Source: Marichromatium purpuratum 984 (GTDB lineage Bacteria > Pseudomonadota > Gammaproteobacteria > Chromatiales > Chromatiaceae). Taken from it: DNA of 64,000 bases. The stretch covers positions 607,501 through 671,500 of the forward strand of contig NZ_CP007031.1 in assembly GCF_000224005.2 (NCBI RefSeq). The letters are read 5' to 3'. The notes under the pieces were generated by a model that was given only the letters and a program-made list of their open reading frames with translations, was not told where the DNA came from and ran no database searches. The position numbers and the translations under genes were made by a program. Shown here piece after piece: positions 6,093 through 26,045 of this stretch. Each line of letters begins with the position of its first letter. The first letter of the stretch is position 1.

Positions 6093-8876
6093 ATGATGGA
6101 TGATTTCGTACCCGGCCAGCGCTGGCTGAGCGAGACCCAGGGTGAACTGGGTCTGGGCATCGTCTCCACCGTTGACGCGCGTTGCGTGCAGATCGCCTTT
6201 CCCGCGGTGGGCGAGACGCGACTCTATGCGCGCCAGAGCGCGCCCCTGGTCCGGGTCGAACTCGCCCCCGGTGAACGGATCCGCGACCGTGCTGGGCGCG
6301 AGTTGGTGGTGGTCGATATTCGCACCCAAGGCGGGGTCATCAACTATGTCTGCGAGGACTGTGAGGGGGCGCGTTGCGAGCTGCCCGAACTCGAACTCGA
6401 CGACCGCCAGCGCTTCAACCGTCCGCAGCAGCGCCTGCTTGCCGGGCGCATCGACAGCGACCGCTGGTTCAGTCTGCGCTATCAGACCTGGCTGCGCGGA
6501 CAGCGCGAGGCCGACTCCGAGGCGTTCGGGCTACTCGGCGCGCGGGTCGCGCCGGTGCCGCACCAGCTCCATATCGCCGCCGAGGTCGCCGAGCGCGAGG
6601 CCCCGCGGGTGCTGCTCGCCGACGAGGTGGGGCTGGGCAAGACCATCGAGGCGGGCCTGATCCTGCACCGCATGCTGCTCACCGGGCGGGCGCGCCGGGT
6701 GCTGGTGGTGACCCCGGAGCCACTGCTCAACCAGTGGCTGGTGGAGATGCGTCGACGCTTCAATCTGCGCTTCGCGCTGTTCGACCGCGAGCGCTTCGAC
6801 GCCATCGAGGAGGACAATCCTTTCCATGCCGAACAGCAGGTGCTCTGCAGCCTCGATATGATCGCCGGCGAGCCCGATGCCGCGCGCGCGGTGCTCGACG
6901 GGCAGTGGGACCTGCTGGTGGTCGACGAGGCCCATCACCTGACCTGGGACGAGGAAGAGGCGAGCCTCGAGTACGACCTGATCGCCGCGCTCGCCGAGAT
7001 CACCCCCGCGGTGCTGCTGCTCACCGCCACCCCCGAGCAGCTCGGGCGAGCCGGGCACTTCGCCCGGCTGCGCCTGCTCGACCCGGCGCGCTTCCACGAC
7101 TATGCCAGCTTCCAGGCTGAGGAGGCCGAGTACGCGCCGGTCGCCGAGCTGGCCGCGCGGTTGCTCGACGAGGCCCCGCTCGAGCCGGACCAGGCGGCGC
7201 TGCTCGCCGGGCTGGTCGGTGACATCGAAGGGGTCGAGCGCACCGAGCTGATCGAGCGCCTGGTCGACCGTCACGGCACCGGGCGGGTGCTGTTTCGCAA
7301 TACCCGCGCGGCGATCGACGGCTTCCCCGCGCGCGAGCTGATCCCGCACCCCCTGCCCGAACCCCCGGCCTTCGCCGCGATCCTGGGCACCGGCGCGCGG
7401 CTCAACCCGGAGCGTGGCTTCGGGCCCGACTGGGAGACACACGACCCCAGAGTGGACTGGCTGATCGAGACCCTGCGCGCGCTGCGCCCGGCCAAGGTGT
7501 TGCTGATCTGCGCCGATGCCGCGACCGTGCTGACCCTGCGCGAGGCCCTGCAGCGGCGCGCCGGGATCCATGCCGCGGTGTTCCACGAGGGCATGTCGAT
7601 CGTCGAGCGCGATCGCGCCGCGGCCTATTTCGCCGCTGCCGACGAGGACGGCACCCAGCTGCTGATGTGTTCGGAGATCGGCAGCGAGGGGCGCAACTTT
7701 CAGTTCGTCCACCATCTGGTGCTGTTCGACCTGCCGCTCGAGCCCGATCTGCTCGAGCAGCGCATCGGTCGGCTCGACCGTATCGGTCAGACCGAGACCA
7801 TTCGCATCCACGTCCCCTATCTCGTCGGCGGTCCGGGCGAGACCCTGTATCGCTGGTATGCTGAGGGGCTGGGCGCCTTCGAGCAGCCGCGACCGGCGGC
7901 TACCACGGTGTTCGAGTCGCTCTCCGATCAGCTGCTCCAGGTCCTGCGCGATCCCGAGGACCTGCCGGCATTGATCGACGCGGCGCGCGCGCACGGCGCG
8001 GCGCTGGAGCAGGATCTGGCCGGCGGTCGCGACCGCCTGCTTGAGCTGCACTCGCACCGTCCCGAGCGCTCCGCCGCGCTGGTCGAGGCGATCGAGTCCG
8101 AGGATGGCGGTCGTGAGGTGGCCGACTACATCGGCCGTTTCTGGGATGCCTTCGGGGTCGAGTACGAGCCCGGCAGCGGTGGCTCGGTGATCGTGCGCCC
8201 GGGGCAGAAGATGCTCCAGGAGCACTTTCCCAGGCTCGACGCCGAGGGGCTGACCGCCACCTTCGATCGCACCGACGCGCTCGCCCACGAGGATCGCGAG
8301 TTCCTCACCTGGGAGCACCCGATGGTGCGTGAGGCGATGGAACTGCTGTGCGACTCCGATCTCGGCACCTCGGCGGTGACGCTGATGCGCGACTCGCGCT
8401 TCGAGCGCACCACTATGCTGCTCGAGGTGCTCTATGTCGCCGAGTGCGTGGCGCCGCGCGAGTTCGATGTTGGGCGCTTCCTGCCGCCGACCCCCTTGCG
8501 CCTGCTGATCGACCCCGAGGGCAATGATCTGGCCGATACGCTCGCCCACGACACCCTTGCCGGCGAGTGCCTCACCCGCAACATCAAGCTCGCGCGCTCG
8601 GTGATCAAGTCGCAGACCCCGAGACTGGCGGCGATGCTGCTGCGCGCCGAGACGCTGGCCCAGCAGGCGCGCGAGCGTCTCGAGGTGGCCGCGCGGGCGC
8701 GGATGCGCGAGGGTCTCGATGGCGAGCTGGCGCGGCTTGCCGCGCTCGCCGAGGTCAACCCCAATGTGCGTGCCGATGAGCTCGAGGGGCTGGCGGCGCG
8801 GCGCGCGCAGCTCGAGCGCTATCTCGGCAAGACCCACCTGCGACTCGACGCGGTGCGGGTGGTGGTGATCGCCTAG
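6093..8876 (+). CDS. rapA: RNA polymerase-associated ATPase RapA
   Basis: SWI2/SNF2-type ATPase that binds RNA polymerase and recycles it after transcription. The N-terminus reads VPGQRWLSETQGELGLG, matching the family opening (GQRW.S..E.ELGLG), followed by a Tudor-like N-terminal domain. The ATPase core has the Walker A segment DEVGLGKTIEAGLIL near residue 175 and the DEAH box VVDEAHHL near 277. The helicase C lobe includes EQRIGRLDRIGQ. The length of 927 residues is slightly below the E. coli protein (968). Two adjacent ATG codons (6093, 6096) could start it. The stop overlaps by a few bases the stop of the convergent lipoprotein gene. Confidence 0.95.
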   Translation: MMDDFVPGQRWLSETQGELGLGIVSTVDARCVQIAFPAVGETRLYARQSAPLVRVELAPGERIRDRAGRELVVVDIRTQGGVINYVCEDCEGARCELPELELDDRQRFNRPQQRLLAGRIDSDRWFSLRYQTWLRGQREADSEAFGLLGARVAPVPHQLHIAAEVAEREAPRVLLADEVGLGKTIEAGLILHRMLLTGRARRVLVVTPEPLLNQWLVEMRRRFNLRFALFDRERFDAIEEDNPFHAEQQVLCSLDMIAGEPDAARAVLDGQWDLLVVDEAHHLTWDEEEASLEYDLIAALAEITPAVLLLTATPEQLGRAGHFARLRLLDPARFHDYASFQAEEAEYAPVAELAARLLDEAPLEPDQAALLAGLVGDIEGVERTELIERLVDRHGTGRVLFRNTRAAIDGFPARELIPHPLPEPPAFAAILGTGARLNPERGFGPDWETHDPRVDWLIETLRALRPAKVLLICADAATVLTLREALQRRAGIHAAVFHEGMSIVERDRAAAYFAAADEDGTQLLMCSEIGSEGRNFQFVHHLVLFDLPLEPDLLEQRIGRLDRIGQTETIRIHVPYLVGGPGETLYRWYAEGLGAFEQPRPAATTVFESLSDQLLQVLRDPEDLPALIDAARAHGAALEQDLAGGRDRLLELHSHRPERSAALVEAIESEDGGREVADYIGRFWDAFGVEYEPGSGGSVIVRPGQKMLQEHFPRLDAEGLTATFDRTDALAHEDREFLTWEHPMVREAMELLCDSDLGTSAVTLMRDSRFERTTMLLEVLYVAECVAPREFDVGRFLPPTPLRLLIDPEGNDLADTLAHDTLAGECLTRNIKLARSVIKSQTPRLAAMLLRAETLAQQARERLEVAARARMREGLDGELARLAALAEVNPNVRADELEGLAARRAQLERYLGKTHLRLDAVRVVVIA

Positions 8877-18925: not shown

Positions 18926-19000
18926 GGCACGGCCCTCCTGAATGGCTCGGGGTGATCCGTGCGGTATTGCACGGGGCGTGCCGGGACCAGCGAGCAGGCG

Positions 19001-19280
19001 CCAGCCGCCAGTCGCCAGCCACCAGCGACCAGCCACCAGTCGCCAGTCGCCAGCCGTCAGCCGCCAGCCGCCAGCCGCCAGCCGCCAGTCGCCAGCGACC
19101 AGCCACCAGTCGCCAGCCGTCAGCCGCCAGCCGTCAGCCGCCAGTCGCCAGTCGCCAGTCGCCAGCCGTCAGCCGCCAGCCGCCAGCGACCAGCCGCCAG
19201 CGACCAGCGACCAGCCGTCAGCCGCCAGTCGCCAGTCGCCAGCCACCGGCCGCCAGCCGCCAGCTGCCAGCGATCAGTCG
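19001..19280. repeat. Heptamer tandem array D (largest)
   Basis: About 40 units of the CCAGNNN family (CCAGCCG, CCAGTCG, CCAGCGA, TCAGCCG and others) over 280 bases. It is the longest copy in the window. Local runs of identical units suggest recent slippage. It shares unit variants with arrays A and B. Confidence 0.92.
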
Positions 19281-19395: not shown

Positions 19396-19535
19396 CTTTG
19401 CGGTCTTTGTGGCTTGGCGGTTCAATCTTCTGGCCGCTGGCCGCTGGCCGCTGGCCGCTGGCCGCTGGCCGCTGGCCGCTGGCCGCTGGCCGCTGGCCGC
19501 TGGCCGCTGGCCGCTGGCCGCTGGCCGCTGGCCGC
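19396..19535. repeat. Shared motif followed by (CCGCTGG)14 array
   Basis: CCTTTGCGGTCTTTGTGGCT-TGGCGGTTCAATC is followed almost directly by about 14 perfect CCGCTGG units. The order and orientation match the copy at 10571-10650, supporting one composite element rather than independent repeats. Confidence 0.9.
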
Positions 19536-19671: not shown

Positions 19672-20616
19672 ATGGAATCCATCCCAGCGCGCCCCGGTGC
19701 CGCGACCGCGCCGGGCGACATCCGTCGTGTCGCCACCGCGATCCGGCGCCGGGTGCTCGAACACACCCTCGAGAACAACGGCGGTTACCTCAGCCAAGCC
19801 TGTTCCTCGGCCGAGATCCTCGCCACCCTCTATCTCGGGGTGATGCGACTCGGGCCGAGCACGGCCCCGCCGATCCCGCGCCCCTTCGCCGGGGTACCCG
19901 GCGCGGACAACCCGCACGCCTTCACCGGTGCCGACTACAACGGTGCGCCCGCGCCCGAACTCGATCGCTTCATCTTCTCCCCGGTGCACTATGCGCTGGT
20001 GCTCTACTCGCTGCTGATCGAACTCGGTCGGTTGGGGCCGGATGCGCTCGATGCGTTCAACCGCGACGGCAGCACCGTCGAGCTGATCGGCGCCGAGCAC
20101 TCGCCGGGCCACGAGGTCACCGCCGGGTCGCTGGGTCAGGCGCTGAGCCAGGCCGGTGGGATCGCGCTGGCGCGTCGGCTGCGCGGTGAGCGCGGGCGGG
20201 TGTGGGTGTTCATGTCCGACGGCGAGTTCCAGGAGGGACAGACCTGGGAGGCCTTCGCCGCCCTGGCGCATCACCGGCTTGGCAACATCGGCATCTATGT
20301 CGACGCCAACGCCCAGCAGTGCGACGGCCCGATGGACACGGTGATGACCACCGAGCCGCTGGCCGCGCGGCTGCGCGCCTTCGGCGCCGAGGTGCGCGAG
20401 GTCGACGGTCACGACCCCGTGGCGCTGGCCGCGGCCGGGGAGGGGGTCGGGGAGGACGGCCTCCCGCGGGTGGTGATCGCCCGCACCGACCCCTGTCGCG
20501 GCATCGACCGGTTGCGCGAGCGCTGGCCCAAGCTCCACTACGTGCGTTTCAAGAACGAGGCGGAGTTCAATCTGTATCGCGGCCTGCTCGCGGGCCTGTC
20601 GGAGGGGGATGCCTGA
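19672..20616 (+). CDS. Transketolase-like N-terminal subunit
   Basis: A 314-residue thiamine-diphosphate-binding half of a split transketolase. I start at ATG 19672 (MESIPARPGAATAPGD); upstream in-frame codons lie in repeat DNA. It has HTLENNGGYLSQACSSAEIL, the substrate or TPP histidine region SPVHYALVLYSLL, GAEHSPGHEVTAGSLGQALS and the ThDP/metal motif MSDGEFQEGQTWEAF...DANAQQCDG. It overlaps the C-terminal subunit gene by one base (TGATG), so a heteromeric enzyme is expected. Split transketolases transfer two-carbon ketol units between sugar phosphates; a specialised substrate is possible given the RuBisCO-like gene downstream. Confidence 0.9.
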   Translation: MESIPARPGAATAPGDIRRVATAIRRRVLEHTLENNGGYLSQACSSAEILATLYLGVMRLGPSTAPPIPRPFAGVPGADNPHAFTGADYNGAPAPELDRFIFSPVHYALVLYSLLIELGRLGPDALDAFNRDGSTVELIGAEHSPGHEVTAGSLGQALSQAGGIALARRLRGERGRVWVFMSDGEFQEGQTWEAFAALAHHRLGNIGIYVDANAQQCDGPMDTVMTTEPLAARLRAFGAEVREVDGHDPVALAAAGEGVGEDGLPRVVIARTDPCRGIDRLRERWPKLHYVRFKNEAEFNLYRGLLAGLSEGDA

Positions 20617-21623
20617 TGGAGATCGTGCAGCGGCCGCACCGCGACAACCTGGTGCGCTGGGCCGAGCAGCGCCCCGAGGTGCTGGTGCTCTCGGCCGACC
20701 TGACCAGCTCGTGCGAGGCCGACGGCTTCCGCGACGTCTATCCCGAGCGCTTCTTCTCGATGGGCATGGCCGAGCAGAACATGATGGGCTTCGCCGCCGG
20801 GTTGGCGCGCGAGGGCTTCTTCCCCTATGTCCACACCTTCGCGGTCTTCGTCTCGCGCCGCCCCTTCGACCAGGTGGCGATGTCGATCGCCTACCCGAAC
20901 CTGCCGGTGCGACTGATCGGCTTCCTGCCGGGGATCACCACCCCGGGCGGCGTCACCCACCAGGCGGTCGACGACATCGGGCTGATGCGTCTGCTGCCGA
21001 ACATGACGGTGCTCGAGTGCGGGGACGCCACCGAGGTCGAGCAGGTGCTCGACCTCGCCCAGGCGGTGCCGGGGCCGGTCTACGTGCGCATGCTGCGCGG
21101 CGAGGTGCCGCGGCTGTTCGACCCCGCCGAGCCGATGGTGCTGGGGCGGGCGCGGTTGCTCGGCGAGGGCGAGGACCTGATCGTGCTCTCCTCCGGGATC
21201 TGCACCGAGGAAGCGCTGCGCGCCACCGGCGCGCTGCGCGCCCACGGCCTCTCGGTCGGTCATCTGCACGTCTCCACCCTCAAGCCGTTCGACGATCCCC
21301 GGGTGCGCGCGGCGCTCGCCAGCGCCCGGCTCGGGGTCATCACCCTGGAGAACCACAGCATCGTCGGCGGGCTCGGCTCGGCGGTGGCCGAACTCATGGC
21401 CGAGCGCGGCATCGGCGCCCGGCTGATCCGTCTCGGGCTGCGCGACACCTATGCCCACGGCGCCAGTCGTCAGTACCTGATGCGCGAGTACGGGCTTGAC
21501 GCCATGGCCCTGGTGCGCGCCGCCGAGCGGCTGGTCGGCGAGCCGCTGGGGATCGACGAGGACGCGCTCGCTGCGGTGCGCCTTGAGACCATGGGGCGCG
21601 CCGAGCGGACCGAGGACCTCTGA
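20616..21623 (+). CDS. Transketolase-like C-terminal subunit
   Basis: A 335-residue partner containing the pyrimidine-binding and C-terminal transketolase domains. Key parts are VLSADLTSSCEADGF, FFSMGMAEQNMMGFAAGLAR (with the catalytic Glu of the AEQN motif), GGVTHQAVDDIGLMR and a C-terminal VITLENHSIVGGLGSAVAEL. Its start overlaps the stop of the N-terminal subunit. The acetyltransferase gene starts 5 bases after it ends. The two halves together equal about 650 residues, the normal size of a one-chain transketolase. Confidence 0.9.
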   Translation: MEIVQRPHRDNLVRWAEQRPEVLVLSADLTSSCEADGFRDVYPERFFSMGMAEQNMMGFAAGLAREGFFPYVHTFAVFVSRRPFDQVAMSIAYPNLPVRLIGFLPGITTPGGVTHQAVDDIGLMRLLPNMTVLECGDATEVEQVLDLAQAVPGPVYVRMLRGEVPRLFDPAEPMVLGRARLLGEGEDLIVLSSGICTEEALRATGALRAHGLSVGHLHVSTLKPFDDPRVRAALASARLGVITLENHSIVGGLGSAVAELMAERGIGARLIRLGLRDTYAHGASRQYLMREYGLDAMALVRAAERLVGEPLGIDEDALAAVRLETMGRAERTEDL

Positions 21624-22221: not shown

Positions 22222-22256
22222 TCTATGGCCCTCGATCGTCACCGGACCCCATCGTC

Positions 22257-23396
22257 ATGCAGGACAGCACCCGGCTCGCGCTGAGCGGCGAGCGACTGAC
22301 TGCCACCTATCACCTGCGCGCGAGCGCCGCCGAGGCCGAGGCCGAGGCGCGGGCGCGGGCGATCTGTGTCGAGCAGACCGTCGAGTTTCCCCCCGAGCTG
22401 ATCGCCGAGGTCGCGATCCACGACCAGGTGATCGGCGAGGTGCGCGCGCTGCGCGCGCTCGCGCCGGGGCGCTTCGAGCTGGTGGTGGCCTATCCGGTGG
22501 AGGCGGCAGGGGCCGAGCTGACCCAGCTGATCAACCTGCTGTTCGGCAACATCAGCATCCAGCCCGGGGTGCGGCTGGTCGATCTCGAGTTGCCGCCGGG
22601 GCTCGCCGCCGGCTATCGCGGTCCGCGCTTCGGGCGCGAGGGGCTGCGCGCCTGTTGCGGCGATCCGGCGCGCCCGCTGCTCTGCACCGCGCTCAAGCCG
22701 ATGGGGCGCTCGCCCGCCGAGCTGGCCGAGCTGGCTTACCGGCTGGCGCGTGGCGGTATCGACTTGATCAAGGACGACCACGGGCTCACCGATCAGTCCT
22801 TCTGCCGCTTCGAGCCCCGGGTGCGACTGTGCGCCGAGGCGGTGGCGCGTGCCAACCGCGAGTGCGGCGGTCACACTCGCTATCTGCCCAATGTCACCGC
22901 CCCGGCCGGCGAGCTGAGGGCGCGTGCGCGGCTGGCACGCGCGGCCGGTGCCGGCGGGTTGCTGGTCTGTCCCGGGCTGGTCGGGTTCGATGCCATGCGC
23001 GCGCTGGCCGATGACGATGCCCTGGGGCTGCCGATCCTCGCCCATCCGGCCTTCCAGGGCGCGCACTGCGCCAGCCCCGACGGCGGGCTCGCGCACGCTG
23101 TGCTCTATGGTCTGTTCAATCGTCTGGCCGGGGCCGACGCGACCATCTTCCCGAGCTGGGGCGGGCGCTTTGCCTATACCGCGGAGGAATGTCGCGCGCT
23201 GGTCGCCGGGGCCAGCCGCCCCTTCGCCGGGCTGCGTCCGATCCTGCCGGTCCCGGCCGGCGGGATGCGGCTCGATCGGGTCGGCGAACTACTCGAATTC
23301 TATGGTCGCGACGCCATTCTCCTGATCGGGGGCGATCTGCATCGCGGAGACCTGAGCGCCAACTGCGCCAGGTTCGTCGCCGCCGCGACGGCCTGA
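22257..23396 (+). CDS. RuBisCO-like protein (form IV)
   Basis: A 379-residue RuBisCO large-subunit homologue. The substrate Lys motif is kept (ALKPMGRS, K147). The carbamate Lys region reads GGIDLIKDDHGLTDQSF, so the metal-binding Glu of KDDE is His175. The loop-6 lysine segment is not recognisable. ILPVPAGGMRLDRVGELLEF and ILLIGGDLHRGD match the phosphate-binding strands. These changes argue against CO2 fixation and for an enolase, isomerase or decarboxylase-type role, as known for other form IV proteins. Start at ATG 22257 (MQDSTRLALSGERLTATYHL). The neighbouring split transketolase may act in the same pathway; the substrate is not identifiable. Confidence 0.92.
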   Translation: MQDSTRLALSGERLTATYHLRASAAEAEAEARARAICVEQTVEFPPELIAEVAIHDQVIGEVRALRALAPGRFELVVAYPVEAAGAELTQLINLLFGNISIQPGVRLVDLELPPGLAAGYRGPRFGREGLRACCGDPARPLLCTALKPMGRSPAELAELAYRLARGGIDLIKDDHGLTDQSFCRFEPRVRLCAEAVARANRECGGHTRYLPNVTAPAGELRARARLARAAGAGGLLVCPGLVGFDAMRALADDDALGLPILAHPAFQGAHCASPDGGLAHAVLYGLFNRLAGADATIFPSWGGRFAYTAEECRALVAGASRPFAGLRPILPVPAGGMRLDRVGELLEFYGRDAILLIGGDLHRGDLSANCARFVAAATA

Positions 23397-23517
23397 GATC
23401 GGTGCCGGGGACGGGCACGACGACCATGCAGGCGGGGATGGAGACCCACCGCCGTCCGCTCCGTTGTCGTCATCCGGCGTGCGCCTCTGCGCACGCGCTG
23501 CCCGGAGGTGATTGCCC

Positions 23518-25458
23518 GTGATACGCTGGTTCCCGAGCCGCTCGGCTCGAACACATCCGCTGCTCGGTCGGCGCGCCCTGGTCTTCGCCCTGGCCAGCGT
23601 CCTCTGTCTGTCGCTGGCGCTGGGTATCGTCTACGGGCGCGAGCCGGTCTATCGCGCCAGCGCCTCGGTGCTCACGGTCAAGCCCAAGGCGGTCGATGCC
23701 CCGAGCGCCACCGCCGACCCCGAGCACGTGATGATCCAACGTCGGTTGCTGCTCGGCGAGTCGCTGCTCGGTCGGCTCGCCATCGATCTGGCCGAGGCCG
23801 GGGTGGCGAGCGATGTGGCGGCATTGCGCGCGCGGCTCGCCGTCGAGCCGATCCCCGAGACCAATCTGCTTGAGCTACGCGCCGAGGGTGGCGACCCGGA
23901 GCGTCTGGCGGTGATCGTCAATCACTGGGTGCGGGCCTATGAGCGGCTGCGTGCCGAGCAGGTCTCGGCCAGCGCCGGGCGCACCACCGCCGAACTCGAA
24001 GAGGAGCAGGCGCGACTGGAGCGACGCATCGAGTCGGCGCGCGCCGAACTCGAGACCTTCGCCGCCGAGCACGACATCGTCGGCATCGAGCGCGCCGAGA
24101 GTCGCGCGCTCGCCGAACTCGAGGATCTCAACGATGCGCTCGGCAAGGCGCGCAATCGCGAGGTCGAGGCACTCGCCCGGCTGCGCGCGCTCGACGAGGC
24201 GGTGGCGCGCGGCGAACGACTGATCCCGCGCGAGCAGCAGAACGACATCGCCCGGTTGCAGCGCTATGTCGAACGTGGCCGCGATCGACTCGACCAGCTC
24301 CATGCCCGCTACACCCAGGCCTATATCGATCGCGACCCGGCGCTGCGTGACCTGCCCGGCGAGCAGGCGGCGCTCGAGCAGTCGCTGGAGCGTGCGCTGT
24401 TGGTCGCGCGCATCACCGTCCGCGACGAGGCTCGCCAGGAGCTGGAGGCGGCGCGCGAGACCGTCGCTCTGCTCGAGGACGACCTCGATCGTCAGCAGCG
24501 CGCGGTGCAGACCTTCTCGCGGCATTTCACGACCTTCGAGGGGTTGCGCGAGGGGCTCGACGGGCTCGAGACGCGTTTTGCCGAGAACGCCCAGCGTCTC
24601 GCCGAGATCGCGCTGCGCGACTTCGAGCAGTATCCGCCGATCCAGGTGGTCGAGTGGGCCTATGCGCCGAGCGCGCCGATTCGTCCCGACTATGCCCGCG
24701 ACCTGCCGATCGCACTCGCCGCCGCGCTCCTCGCCGCGCTCTTCCTGACCTGGTTGACCGACTATCTCGGCGAGCGCTCCGGGGCGCCGCGGGTCTCCTA
24801 TCTCGGGGTGCGGATCGAGGGTGGCGAGGATGCTGACGGGGTACGCCTGGTCGAGTCCGCCGCGCCGGTGCCCGACGACGGCGCCGGGCAGTCGGCAGCG
24901 CTCGAGGCGCCGCGCGCGCGCGCGGCGGTGATCGATCTGCCGCGGTTGCCACGGCTGCTCGAGCCGGCCGAGATCGAGCTGCTGCTGCGCGATGTCGATA
25001 CCGAGGTGCGTGGTCACTGCGCGCTCTTGCTCTCGGGGGTCAAGCCGGCGGAGCTGATGCTGCTCGATCGCGACTGCTTCGATCCGGTCGCGGGCACGGT
25101 CTCGGTGCCGGGCGCGGGACGGCGTGAGCTGGCGCTCGCGCCCGGGGCCTGGGGCTGGCTCGAGCCGCTGCTCGATGGCCTGAGACGCGGTATCGGGCCG
25201 CTCGCCGCCGAGCGCCTCGACCGCGCGCTGGGCAAGGCCGCCGGGGCCTCGATGTTGCGTGAGCGGCGCGGGGTCGACGCCCAGGCGCTGTGGCACAGTT
25301 ATCTGGTCTATCTGGCGCACCAGGGCGCCGGTTTCGAGTGGTTGCAGCACCGGGTCGGTCCGCTGGCCCCGGAGCTGCGCTCGGCGTTGCGCAAGTTCAT
25401 GGTCGCCGGTCAGCGTGGCGAGGCGATCGACTGGGTTTATCCGGTCTTGCGTGACTGA
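23518..25458 (+). CDS. Wzz/GumC-like chain-length protein with recombinase-like C-terminal domain
   Basis: A 646-residue fusion. The GTG at 23518 is preferred (GGAGGTGA 7 bases upstream); a TTG at 23512 is too close. Residues 20-40 are TM1 (ALVFALASVLCLSLALGIVY), followed by a periplasmic Wzz-type domain, a long coiled coil (about residues 150-380) and TM2 near 396-418. This is the layout of polysaccharide co-polymerases. After it comes a cytoplasmic domain of about 170 residues. It has CALLLSGVKPAELMLLDRDC, AGTVSVPG and DAQALWHSYLVYLAHQGAGF, resembling tyrosine-recombinase boxes (TGLRxxELxxLxxxD and HxLRHxxxTxxxxxG). The catalytic Arg positions are Lys and Trp, so strand cutting is unlikely. 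No polysaccharide genes flank it. Confidence 0.78.
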   Translation: MIRWFPSRSARTHPLLGRRALVFALASVLCLSLALGIVYGREPVYRASASVLTVKPKAVDAPSATADPEHVMIQRRLLLGESLLGRLAIDLAEAGVASDVAALRARLAVEPIPETNLLELRAEGGDPERLAVIVNHWVRAYERLRAEQVSASAGRTTAELEEEQARLERRIESARAELETFAAEHDIVGIERAESRALAELEDLNDALGKARNREVEALARLRALDEAVARGERLIPREQQNDIARLQRYVERGRDRLDQLHARYTQAYIDRDPALRDLPGEQAALEQSLERALLVARITVRDEARQELEAARETVALLEDDLDRQQRAVQTFSRHFTTFEGLREGLDGLETRFAENAQRLAEIALRDFEQYPPIQVVEWAYAPSAPIRPDYARDLPIALAAALLAALFLTWLTDYLGERSGAPRVSYLGVRIEGGEDADGVRLVESAAPVPDDGAGQSAALEAPRARAAVIDLPRLPRLLEPAEIELLLRDVDTEVRGHCALLLSGVKPAELMLLDRDCFDPVAGTVSVPGAGRRELALAPGAWGWLEPLLDGLRRGIGPLAAERLDRALGKAAGASMLRERRGVDAQALWHSYLVYLAHQGAGFEWLQHRVGPLAPELRSALRKFMVAGQRGEAIDWVYPVLRD

Positions 25459-25478: not shown

Positions 25479-26045
25479 ATGGCACTGAGGATCAAGAGTC
25501 ACTGGTCGGACCCGGACCGCGCCCGTTCGCTCGACGAGGTCGCCGGCGCGCTGGCCTTCATCGCCTGGCGCATCGCCCTCGATCGCGCGATCAACCTGCA
25601 CTGTGAGCGCTTCGTCTATCGCGACGACGCTCAGCGTCTGGCGGTGATCGAGGAATATCTGGTGTTCCTGATCCAGATCGCCGATCGGCTCGCCCATGCC
25701 CGTCTCGACGAGGACCGGCGGCGCGATCTGATCACCGGGTTCGCGCGCCGGGTCTTCGATCATGTCCAGGACAATGCCACCGATCTGCTCGGGCCGGGGG
25801 CGCACGGTGCGGCCTTCATCGAGCGGCTCAATGCCCGCTCCGGGGAATACGCCGAGTATGGCTTTACCGACGAGGGACCGAGCTATCCGCTGCTGCGTCA
25901 TCTCGGCTTCGAGATCCAGCGGCTGATGGGTGAGGGGCAGGAGAATCGCTGGGTGATCGATCAGGTGATGGACCAGGACGGCTGGGAGGCCTATCGCCGC
26001 TTCGATCGCGCCTTCGCCGATCTGTTCGAGTCCGACCCGATCTGA
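25479..26045 (+). CDS. Conserved hypothetical protein
   Basis: I do not recognise this 188-residue protein. It starts at ATG 25479 after GGAGGGCAGGAG, 20 bases downstream of the Wzz-like gene, so the two are probably cotranscribed. It is soluble, mostly helical and rich in aromatic and charged residues (DEVAGALAFIAWRIALDRAI, YLVFLIQIADRLAHARLDED, FDHVQDNATDLLGPGAHGAA), without signal peptide or known motif. Its last 55 bases overlap the convergent EamA-type gene. A regulatory role next to the membrane protein is conceivable but unsupported. Confidence 0.78.
   Translation: MALRIKSHWSDPDRARSLDEVAGALAFIAWRIALDRAINLHCERFVYRDDAQRLAVIEEYLVFLIQIADRLAHARLDEDRRRDLITGFARRVFDHVQDNATDLLGPGAHGAAFIERLNARSGEYAEYGFTDEGPSYPLLRHLGFEIQRLMGEGQENRWVIDQVMDQDGWEAYRRFDRAFADLFESDPI

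Follow-up and report, generated by a model that had tools for sequence, protein, structure and literature searches.

Introduction

Polysaccharide co-polymerases (PCPs) of the PCP-2 type are thought to cycle between octamer assembly and disassembly through phosphorylation of their kinase domains, and in the passages of PMC12004946 that treat this cycle, both the making and unmaking of the ring and the setting of chain length are understood mainly via kinases. The same passages propose that in Myxococcus a dead kinase, EcpK, guides the PCP assembly cycle by binding alone, and they name PCP-2 variants that carry a pseudokinase, also of kinase fold, in the same chain (PMC12004946). Among tyrosine recombinases, the portion of PMC10516654 concerned with MrpR (YopR) describes a protein that has lost recombination and kept DNA binding. 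Here we describe a gene of Marichromatium purpuratum 984, located at 23518–25458 of a 64,000-nucleotide stretch of contig NZ_CP007031.1 (hereafter, the window), that encodes an orphan PCP and a dead tyrosine-recombinase catalytic domain in one chain. Each of the elements is known, PCPs as well as dead PCP kinases and dead recombinases; their combination as a wide, conserved family appears to be unpublished in the open-licence literature, since no description of a PCP with a recombinase-type domain was found among the matches listed for open-licence PMC papers, a scope that lies apart from subscription papers and preprints.

Architecture and fold of the fusion protein

The fusion gene is an intact open reading frame (ORF) on the forward strand, which runs from a GTG start codon at 23518 to a stop codon at 25458 and encodes 646 amino acids (aa); a Shine-Dalgarno-like GGAGG can be read from the sequence at 23504–23508, 5' of the GTG. 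In the product, a two-helix PCP is followed by a disordered linker and then by a cytoplasmic domain of 170 residues, which adopts the catalytic fold of tyrosine recombinases. The first transmembrane helix (TM1, 23557–23637) spans residues 14–40 in the full-length AlphaFold model and 15–41 by hydropathy. The periplasmic PCP domain (residues 41–391, 23638–24690), delimited by the secondary structure of the model, Foldseek, and TIGR03017, has an alpha/beta base with very long helices. It is followed by the second transmembrane helix (TM2, residues 392–418, 24691–24771; hydropathy and full-length model) and a mostly disordered cytoplasmic linker (24772–24936), which bears a short motif, GVRI, after TM2 and has a predicted local distance difference test (pLDDT) score below 50 at residues 420–474. 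Profiles, structure, and alignment place the dead recombinase domain at residues 474–646 (24937–25455), folded in the model from about residue 481 to the C-terminus; the first-pass annotation had drawn it at 24910–25458, and the domain is indeed there, with better limits slightly within that span. The full-length model has a mean pLDDT of 82.9 and a predicted template modeling (pTM) score of 0.43, a low value that we attribute to the flexible joint. Because the full-length frame recurs across many independent isolates and bins, an artefact of frame or assembly is ruled out.

To represent the family, 69 of 83 listed frames were aligned, after removal of nine under 600 aa (L093, L094, two in L095, L097, L100, L101, L102, and L112) and of one member each of five duplicate pairs (L002/L042, L003/L043, L005/L056, L014/L070, and L004/L092). 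The first-pass annotation had proposed an integrase fold for the C-terminal domain and had set, as the refuting outcome, a failure of the domain to match that catalytic fold in structure. An AlphaFold2 model of the domain alone, built without templates from the family's own alignment, has a pLDDT of 90.5 and a pTM of 0.89, and it matches tyrosine recombinases with both Foldseek and VIA-align, so the interpretation stands. The best Foldseek E-value was 8.3e-5, and the best 50 of 97 matches were all tyrosine recombinases; VIA-align superposed the domain on the integrase 3nkh_A with a Z of 15.1 and a root-mean-square deviation of 2.5 over 154 residues, and gave Z ≥ 8 for 92 of the 404 chains picked by Foldseek.

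Sequence profiles agree with the structural matches. Searched against PDB sequences, the family profile matched the archaeal XerC-like 4a8e (E 4.3e-13) and XerD 1a0p (E 6.3e-8), and the family domains were matched by PF00589 (57 of 69 at E ≤ 1, best 8.4e-13) and by the PHROGs integrase phrog_1 (49 of 69 at E ≤ 0.01). The window copy is among the domains of this set that neither PF00589 nor phrog_1 matched; searched alone, it gave no match in Pfam, nothing with phmmer against PDB sequences, and in NCBIfam a single match (E 0.017) that looks like chance, to a family of unrelated oxidases. It did retrieve the genome's own XerD-like recombinase, which we take to be XerD, with a whole-genome E of 4.8e-4, and tblastn aligned it in register with XerD-like catalytic domains at E-values down to 3.5e-7, which are flattering because the database consisted of 12 loci chosen by the same search. 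A chance resemblance to recombinases can be dismissed, given the structural matches and those obtained with Pfam, PHROGs, and the family profile. The core-binding domain of tyrosine recombinases is not present in the model of the window protein, where the disordered linker (residues 420–474) and TM2 precede the catalytic domain.

The Wzz-type assignment made in the first pass is upheld by structure. The best Foldseek matches of the full-length model were Wzc (E 6.4e-9), KpsE, and WzzE (9e-5), with XerA and other recombinases lower down; chain-level TM-scores against PCP structures were low (0.2–0.4) because the model is a monomer with a disordered linker. Hydropathy and the model show a large periplasmic domain, made mostly of helices, between two transmembrane helices, the arrangement that defines PCPs, and a simple segment count across the 69 family members gave two hydropathy segments in 44, three in 23, four in one, and one in one. 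In NCBIfam, the nearest families to the PCP part are TIGR03017 (EpsF, E 6.3e-9) and then TIGR03007 (XrtA chain-length determinant, E 9.9e-7), both scoring far under their curated cut-offs (35 of 423 bits and 27 of 279 bits, respectively). A role of the gene product in polymer length or export is predicted by homology only, with no recurring polysaccharide cluster found nearby. We also considered a defence-system identity and rejected it, as the only PADLOC matches of the protein were to JetC and PbeC (E 0.0014 or worse) and fell within its periplasmic helices.

Distribution and evolution

A search for the same fusion across Chromatiaceae found it there and, in addition, in methanotrophs and ammonia oxidizers. 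Scanning genome contigs with a profile of the full-length alignment yielded 72 loci, whose carriers are Marichromatium and other Chromatiaceae, Sedimenticola, Methylobacter, Methylomonas, Methylotuvimicrobium, Nitrosomonas, Nitrosospira, Nitrosovibrio, and bins; the 89 distinct copies aligned come from Chromatiaceae, Methylococcaceae, Nitrosomonadaceae, and other families. Many of these carriers (Nitrosomonas, methanotrophs, and Chromatiaceae) have intracytoplasmic membranes; Sedimenticola and Nitrosovibrio are not known to. Within the order, the domain occurs in ORFs of at least 610 aa in 44 of 210 genomes, and two more genomes match only via frames of 313 and 403 residues (50–53 bits). In the phylum sample, such ORFs were found in 3 of 398 genomes, the other eight matching genomes having frames of 295–426 residues that score at most 54.4 bits. 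Among 369 genomes of the class, 89 match the domain; strong domain matches (E ≤ 4.6e-34) and PCP matches (E ≤ 1e-40) coincide in six, and the remaining 83 are weaker (E 2.4e-8 or above).

The 147 matching frames split by score into 107 at 114 bits or more and 39 at 53 bits or less, with the cut window gene at 75. Each of the 107 frames over 80 bits has 647 aa or more and a match to the PCP profile (E ≤ 9.1e-80). Among the 40 frames below 80 bits a PCP match was found in the window gene only, itself cut by the locus end. For the comparisons below, the 89 distinct fusion domains were aligned with 35 recombinases, which were pulled in by the family's own profiles and are not a random sample. Left out of the 40 weaker frames were the cut window gene (L160), a frame identical to an included row (L011), and three with matched spans under 100 positions (L008, L031, and L036).

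In a tree of these 89 + 35 sequences, the fusion domains lie on one side of a branch and the recombinases on the other, with a Shimodaira–Hasegawa-like approximate likelihood ratio test (SH-aLRT) value of 92. A second tree separates the 69 domain-bearing PCPs from four domain-less PCPs with the same value (SH-aLRT 92). The latter four proteins come from three records, namely two of Halieaceae and a bin that contributes two proteins, and this tree omits L101 as well as the short frames at contig ends; its rooting is weak because the two outgroup branches are very long. From these trees, some of whose branches are long, a single capture of the recombinase domain is apparently the simplest account, and the combination of PCP and recombinase domain is old. 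Spread by phages or plasmids was rejected: L062, a family member of 651 aa and the single one queried, had no match among 50,697 phage records (E ≤ 1e-5) or 72,556 plasmid records (E ≤ 1e-20). The domain is under purifying selection, as Nei-Gojobori ratios of nonsynonymous to synonymous substitution (dN/dS) in 12 pairs, which are not independent because they were hand-picked with shared members, are 0.09–0.28 for the domain vs 0.06–0.21 for the PCP part.

Several single loci deserve mention. L094, L095 (a tandem pair), and L097 encode PCP relatives that stop soon after TM2 and have no recombinase domain; L094 carries GVRVY after TM2, the counterpart of GVRI in the window protein. In a methanotrophic symbiont of Bathymodiolus, the frame at 7072–8490 of L101 ends just past the linker with the domain missing, and another symbiont locus (L107) has the domain. 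The copy in L077, titled Candidatus Polarisedimenticolaceae (Acidobacteriota), is near-identical to that of Sedimenticola L074 and likely lies on a misbinned contig. L114, L142, and G437 each have one TGA within the matched stretch of the fusion, which may be the terminal stop.

Loss of the catalytic residues

Tyrosine recombinases have six catalytic positions: Arg I, Lys, His II, Arg II, His/Trp, and Tyr. The two recombinase boxes quoted in the first-pass annotation are present in the window protein, GVKPAEL with Lys509 and ALWHSYLVYLAHQG with Trp592, and, as it had claimed, Lys and Trp occupy the catalytic Arg positions: Lys509 (25042–25044) stands at Arg I and Trp592 (25291–25293) at Arg II. 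The alignment extends the loss to the whole set, of which the window copy keeps none of six, the others being Pro531 at the hairpin Lys position (25108–25110), Gln589 at His II (25282–25284), Pro615 at His/Trp (25360–25362), and Leu624 at the nucleophile Tyr (25387–25389), all on the forward strand. Across the 89 fusions, Arg I and His II are kept in none, Lys in two, His or Trp in eight, Tyr in 67, and Arg II in 69, and no domain retains more than three of the six. The corresponding counts for the 35 recombinases are 35 for Arg I, Arg II, and Tyr, 34 for His II and for His/Trp, and 33 for Lys; 33 of them keep all six residues, one keeps five, and one keeps three. Each of the ten domains that carry Trp at Arg II carries Leu at the Tyr position, and each of the three that carry His at Arg II carries Phe there; the ten Trp/Leu domains may represent one event.

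The framework of the fold is retained, with the Glu512 position kept in 87 and the Arg536 position in 88 of the 89 fusions, and a new conserved surface has appeared. Gln602 is near-invariant (69 of 69 domains, and 88 of 89 in the larger set); it is flanked by Arg or Lys at 601 (83 of 89) and 605 (81 of 89), positions that are mostly Glu/Asn and Asp, respectively, among the recombinases, and the preceding helix carries a Tyr-x-x-Tyr motif (Tyr in 88 and 81 of 89). Together they form a family-specific patch, YxxYLV[RK]QG[LIV][RK]L. Near the C-terminus, the window protein has Tyr-Pro (25438–25443, forward strand), matching a family motif, [YH]P, that 85 of the 89 fusions share, the Pro being kept in 86. 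At its place 26 of the 35 recombinases have HP, and its distance to the Tyr position is 20 residues in 83 of the 85 fusions vs 17 in recombinases. Collectively, these results demonstrate the fold, the fusion, and the loss of catalytic residues in the family.

These counts leave next to no prospect that the domain has stayed active, as a recombinase or nuclease whose active site is unusual; many members do keep Arg II and the Tyr position, but Arg I and His II are gone from all 89, Lys from all but two, and the window copy lacks all six.

Genomic context

Among the 72 loci, 70 hold the gene, and 50 of these 70 extend 3 kb or more to either side of it. Neighbours were clustered (blastp E < 1e-8, half-length overlap) and not annotated singly, and each neighbour gene family recurred at nine or fewer of the 72 loci. 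A dedicated partner gene nearby was therefore rejected, and the protein may not serve polysaccharide polymerisation.

The genome holds four other Wzz-type proteins, and at three of their loci there is a CpsD/BY-kinase-like match (adjacent in two, in the same frame in one), all under the curated TIGR01007 cut-off. The nearest kinase-like match to the fusion gene is more than 100 kb away; the recombinase-like domain thus occupies the kinase's place. When the three kinase-like proteins of this genome were compared with the 72 loci (blastp, 1e-5), no relative was found, a search of limited reach because the queries are themselves sub-cut-off; one query (L169) is cut by the locus end, and its longest frame was used instead.

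In the window, a gene resembling the RuBisCO large chain (22245–23393; PF00016, E 5.5e-24) lies directly upstream of the fusion gene, and 5' of it is a transketolase in two separate halves (19771–21620). Two 7-base tandem repeats lie upstream of the split transketolase genes, CAGCCGC at 18995–19271 (39.6 copies) and CTGGCCG at 19430–19535 (15.1 copies, 100% matches). A 188-aa protein without a Pfam match is encoded at 25479–26045, 20 bases downstream of the fusion gene, and is a possible operon partner.

Possible functions of the recombinase-like domain

We propose, at roughly even chances, that the domain is a pseudo-enzyme scaffold that governs PCP assembly in a manner comparable to EcpK, a function that we infer by analogy. 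The PCP subunits would form a ring, below which the recombinase-fold domain would hang on its flexible linker; the domain would act through protein-protein contact with neighbouring subunits or a partner, and this contact would set the timing of ring assembly or disassembly, as proposed for EcpK with EpsV. Such a mechanism would need neither phosphorylation nor DNA chemistry.

Several points weigh against this proposal. Oligomerisation and a partner of the domain are themselves inferred, and a role in polysaccharide polymerisation may be wrong for this protein, given the missing recurrent neighbours noted above. The Pfam Wzz model stays below its cut-off in the window protein (12 and 15.6 bits vs 25.5). 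The joint retention of Arg II and Tyr in 61 of 89 fusions, L070 of Methylotuvimicrobium buryatense among them, could reflect residual nucleic-acid or phosphate binding, and in 11 of the 12 pairs dN/dS is higher for the domain than for the PCP part. As to its history, the tree of the domains is a quick one in which the long branches of a recombinase (L018) and a fusion (L146) meet at the dividing branch, and the PCP profile used in the class scan, built from domain-bearing members and applied at E ≤ 1e-40, could miss domain-less relatives.

A more specific form of the scaffold, which we hold only tentatively and rate as rather doubtful, is a kinase-free switch. Recombinases form synaptic rings through head-to-tail, cyclic C-terminal contacts (Xer/Cre), and the domain might reuse these contacts to zip and unzip the PCP ring; the conserved [YH]P near the C-terminus is a weak pointer in this direction.

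The rival that survives best, though we consider it somewhat unlikely, is that the domain is a recruitment or sensing module: on binding a dedicated cytoplasmic partner or a small ligand, it would send a signal to the PCP and have no part in ring assembly. The family-specific patch around Gln602, the long flexible linker, and the orphan character of the genes would suit such a module. The neighbourhoods speak against it, because no family but the PCP itself is co-conserved beside more than nine loci; a partner could be encoded elsewhere.

The first-pass annotation had suggested DNA or protein binding as uses of the domain. A membrane-anchored DNA binder, in which the non-cutting domain ties a chromosomal site or promoter to an envelope protein as in MrpR (YopR), strikes us as improbable. 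Its fold relatives include MrpR itself, which binds DNA after the loss of recombination (in the part of PMC10516654 concerned with it), and, by entry title, the phage repressor SroF, and the Arg II and Tyr pair is the kind of remnant that a DNA binder might keep. However, that pair is lost in the window copy, the core-binding domain is missing, with the preceding 55 residues disordered, and the charge is of the wrong sign. On aligned cores, the median isoelectric point (pI) is 4.86 and the net charge −6 in the 89 fusions vs 9.77 and +4 in the 35 recombinases, with a pI above 7 in 1 of 89 fusions and below 7 in 4 of 35 recombinases (88 fusions lie at or below 7 and 31 recombinases above it). 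This repeats a first comparison in which pI exceeded 7 in 3 of 69 domains and in 19 of 19 recombinases, the latter selected by intact boxes. For the window copy, which is near neutral (pI 6.5 for the core and 7.1 for the entire domain), the argument from charge carries less weight than for the family. Because the family domain is acidic, DNA binding is unlikely as judged from sequence, and of the two uses protein binding would fit the domain better.

That the domain is a decaying passenger, fused by accident and drifting, is very improbable. Three catalytic residues are lost or nearly so throughout, the window copy has lost more, and in nearly all pairs the domain has the higher dN/dS of the two parts; against this stand the low dN/dS in all 12 pairs, the new near-invariant residues, the retention of the domain across several families, and the full length of all 107 frames over 80 bits.

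This large branch of PCPs, with another dead enzyme at the same position, offers a natural test of how the cytoplasmic domain matters, as an enzyme or as a scaffold. It is also an uncommon case of a recombinase fold that moved to a membrane protein and lost cutting, and probably DNA binding too. The carriers include nitrifiers (Nitrosomonas and Nitrosospira), methanotrophs, and purple sulfur bacteria, some of which can be cultured and manipulated.

Comparison with known systems

Among curated families, the EpsF and XrtA determinants (TIGR03017 and TIGR03007) are nearest to the PCP part, but the scores fall far below their cut-offs and no recurring exopolysaccharide cluster was found beside the fusion gene. 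With XerC/XerD and the PF00589 recombinases, the C-terminal domain shares the fold of the catalytic domain, the framework Glu and Arg, and the register of box II; unlike them, it has no core-binding domain, has lost the catalytic set, is acidic rather than basic, and is anchored to the membrane. It resembles MrpR/YopR, the SPbeta repressor, as a recombinase fold that has lost its catalytic residues and been reused (VIA-align Z 10.6 to 8a0a), whereas MrpR has a core-binding domain and binds DNA, and the part of PMC10516654 devoted to it describes no membrane fusion.

The closest overall likeness is to the PCP-2a proteins (Wzc, the best Foldseek match), which have the same two transmembrane helices around a large helical periplasmic domain and a folded cytoplasmic C-terminal domain. 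Wzc ends in a BY-kinase domain with Walker motifs and a Tyr-rich tail, in place of which the fusion has a dead tyrosine-recombinase fold, and the fusion gene has no recurring gene neighbourhood. EpsV with the BY pseudokinase EcpK of Myxococcus xanthus likewise pairs a PCP with a catalytically dead cytoplasmic domain that is a putative scaffold, according to the passages on this pair in PMC12004946. EcpK is a separate protein of BY-kinase fold, whereas here a recombinase fold sits in the same chain as the PCP, and it is only in their working principle that the two may be alike.

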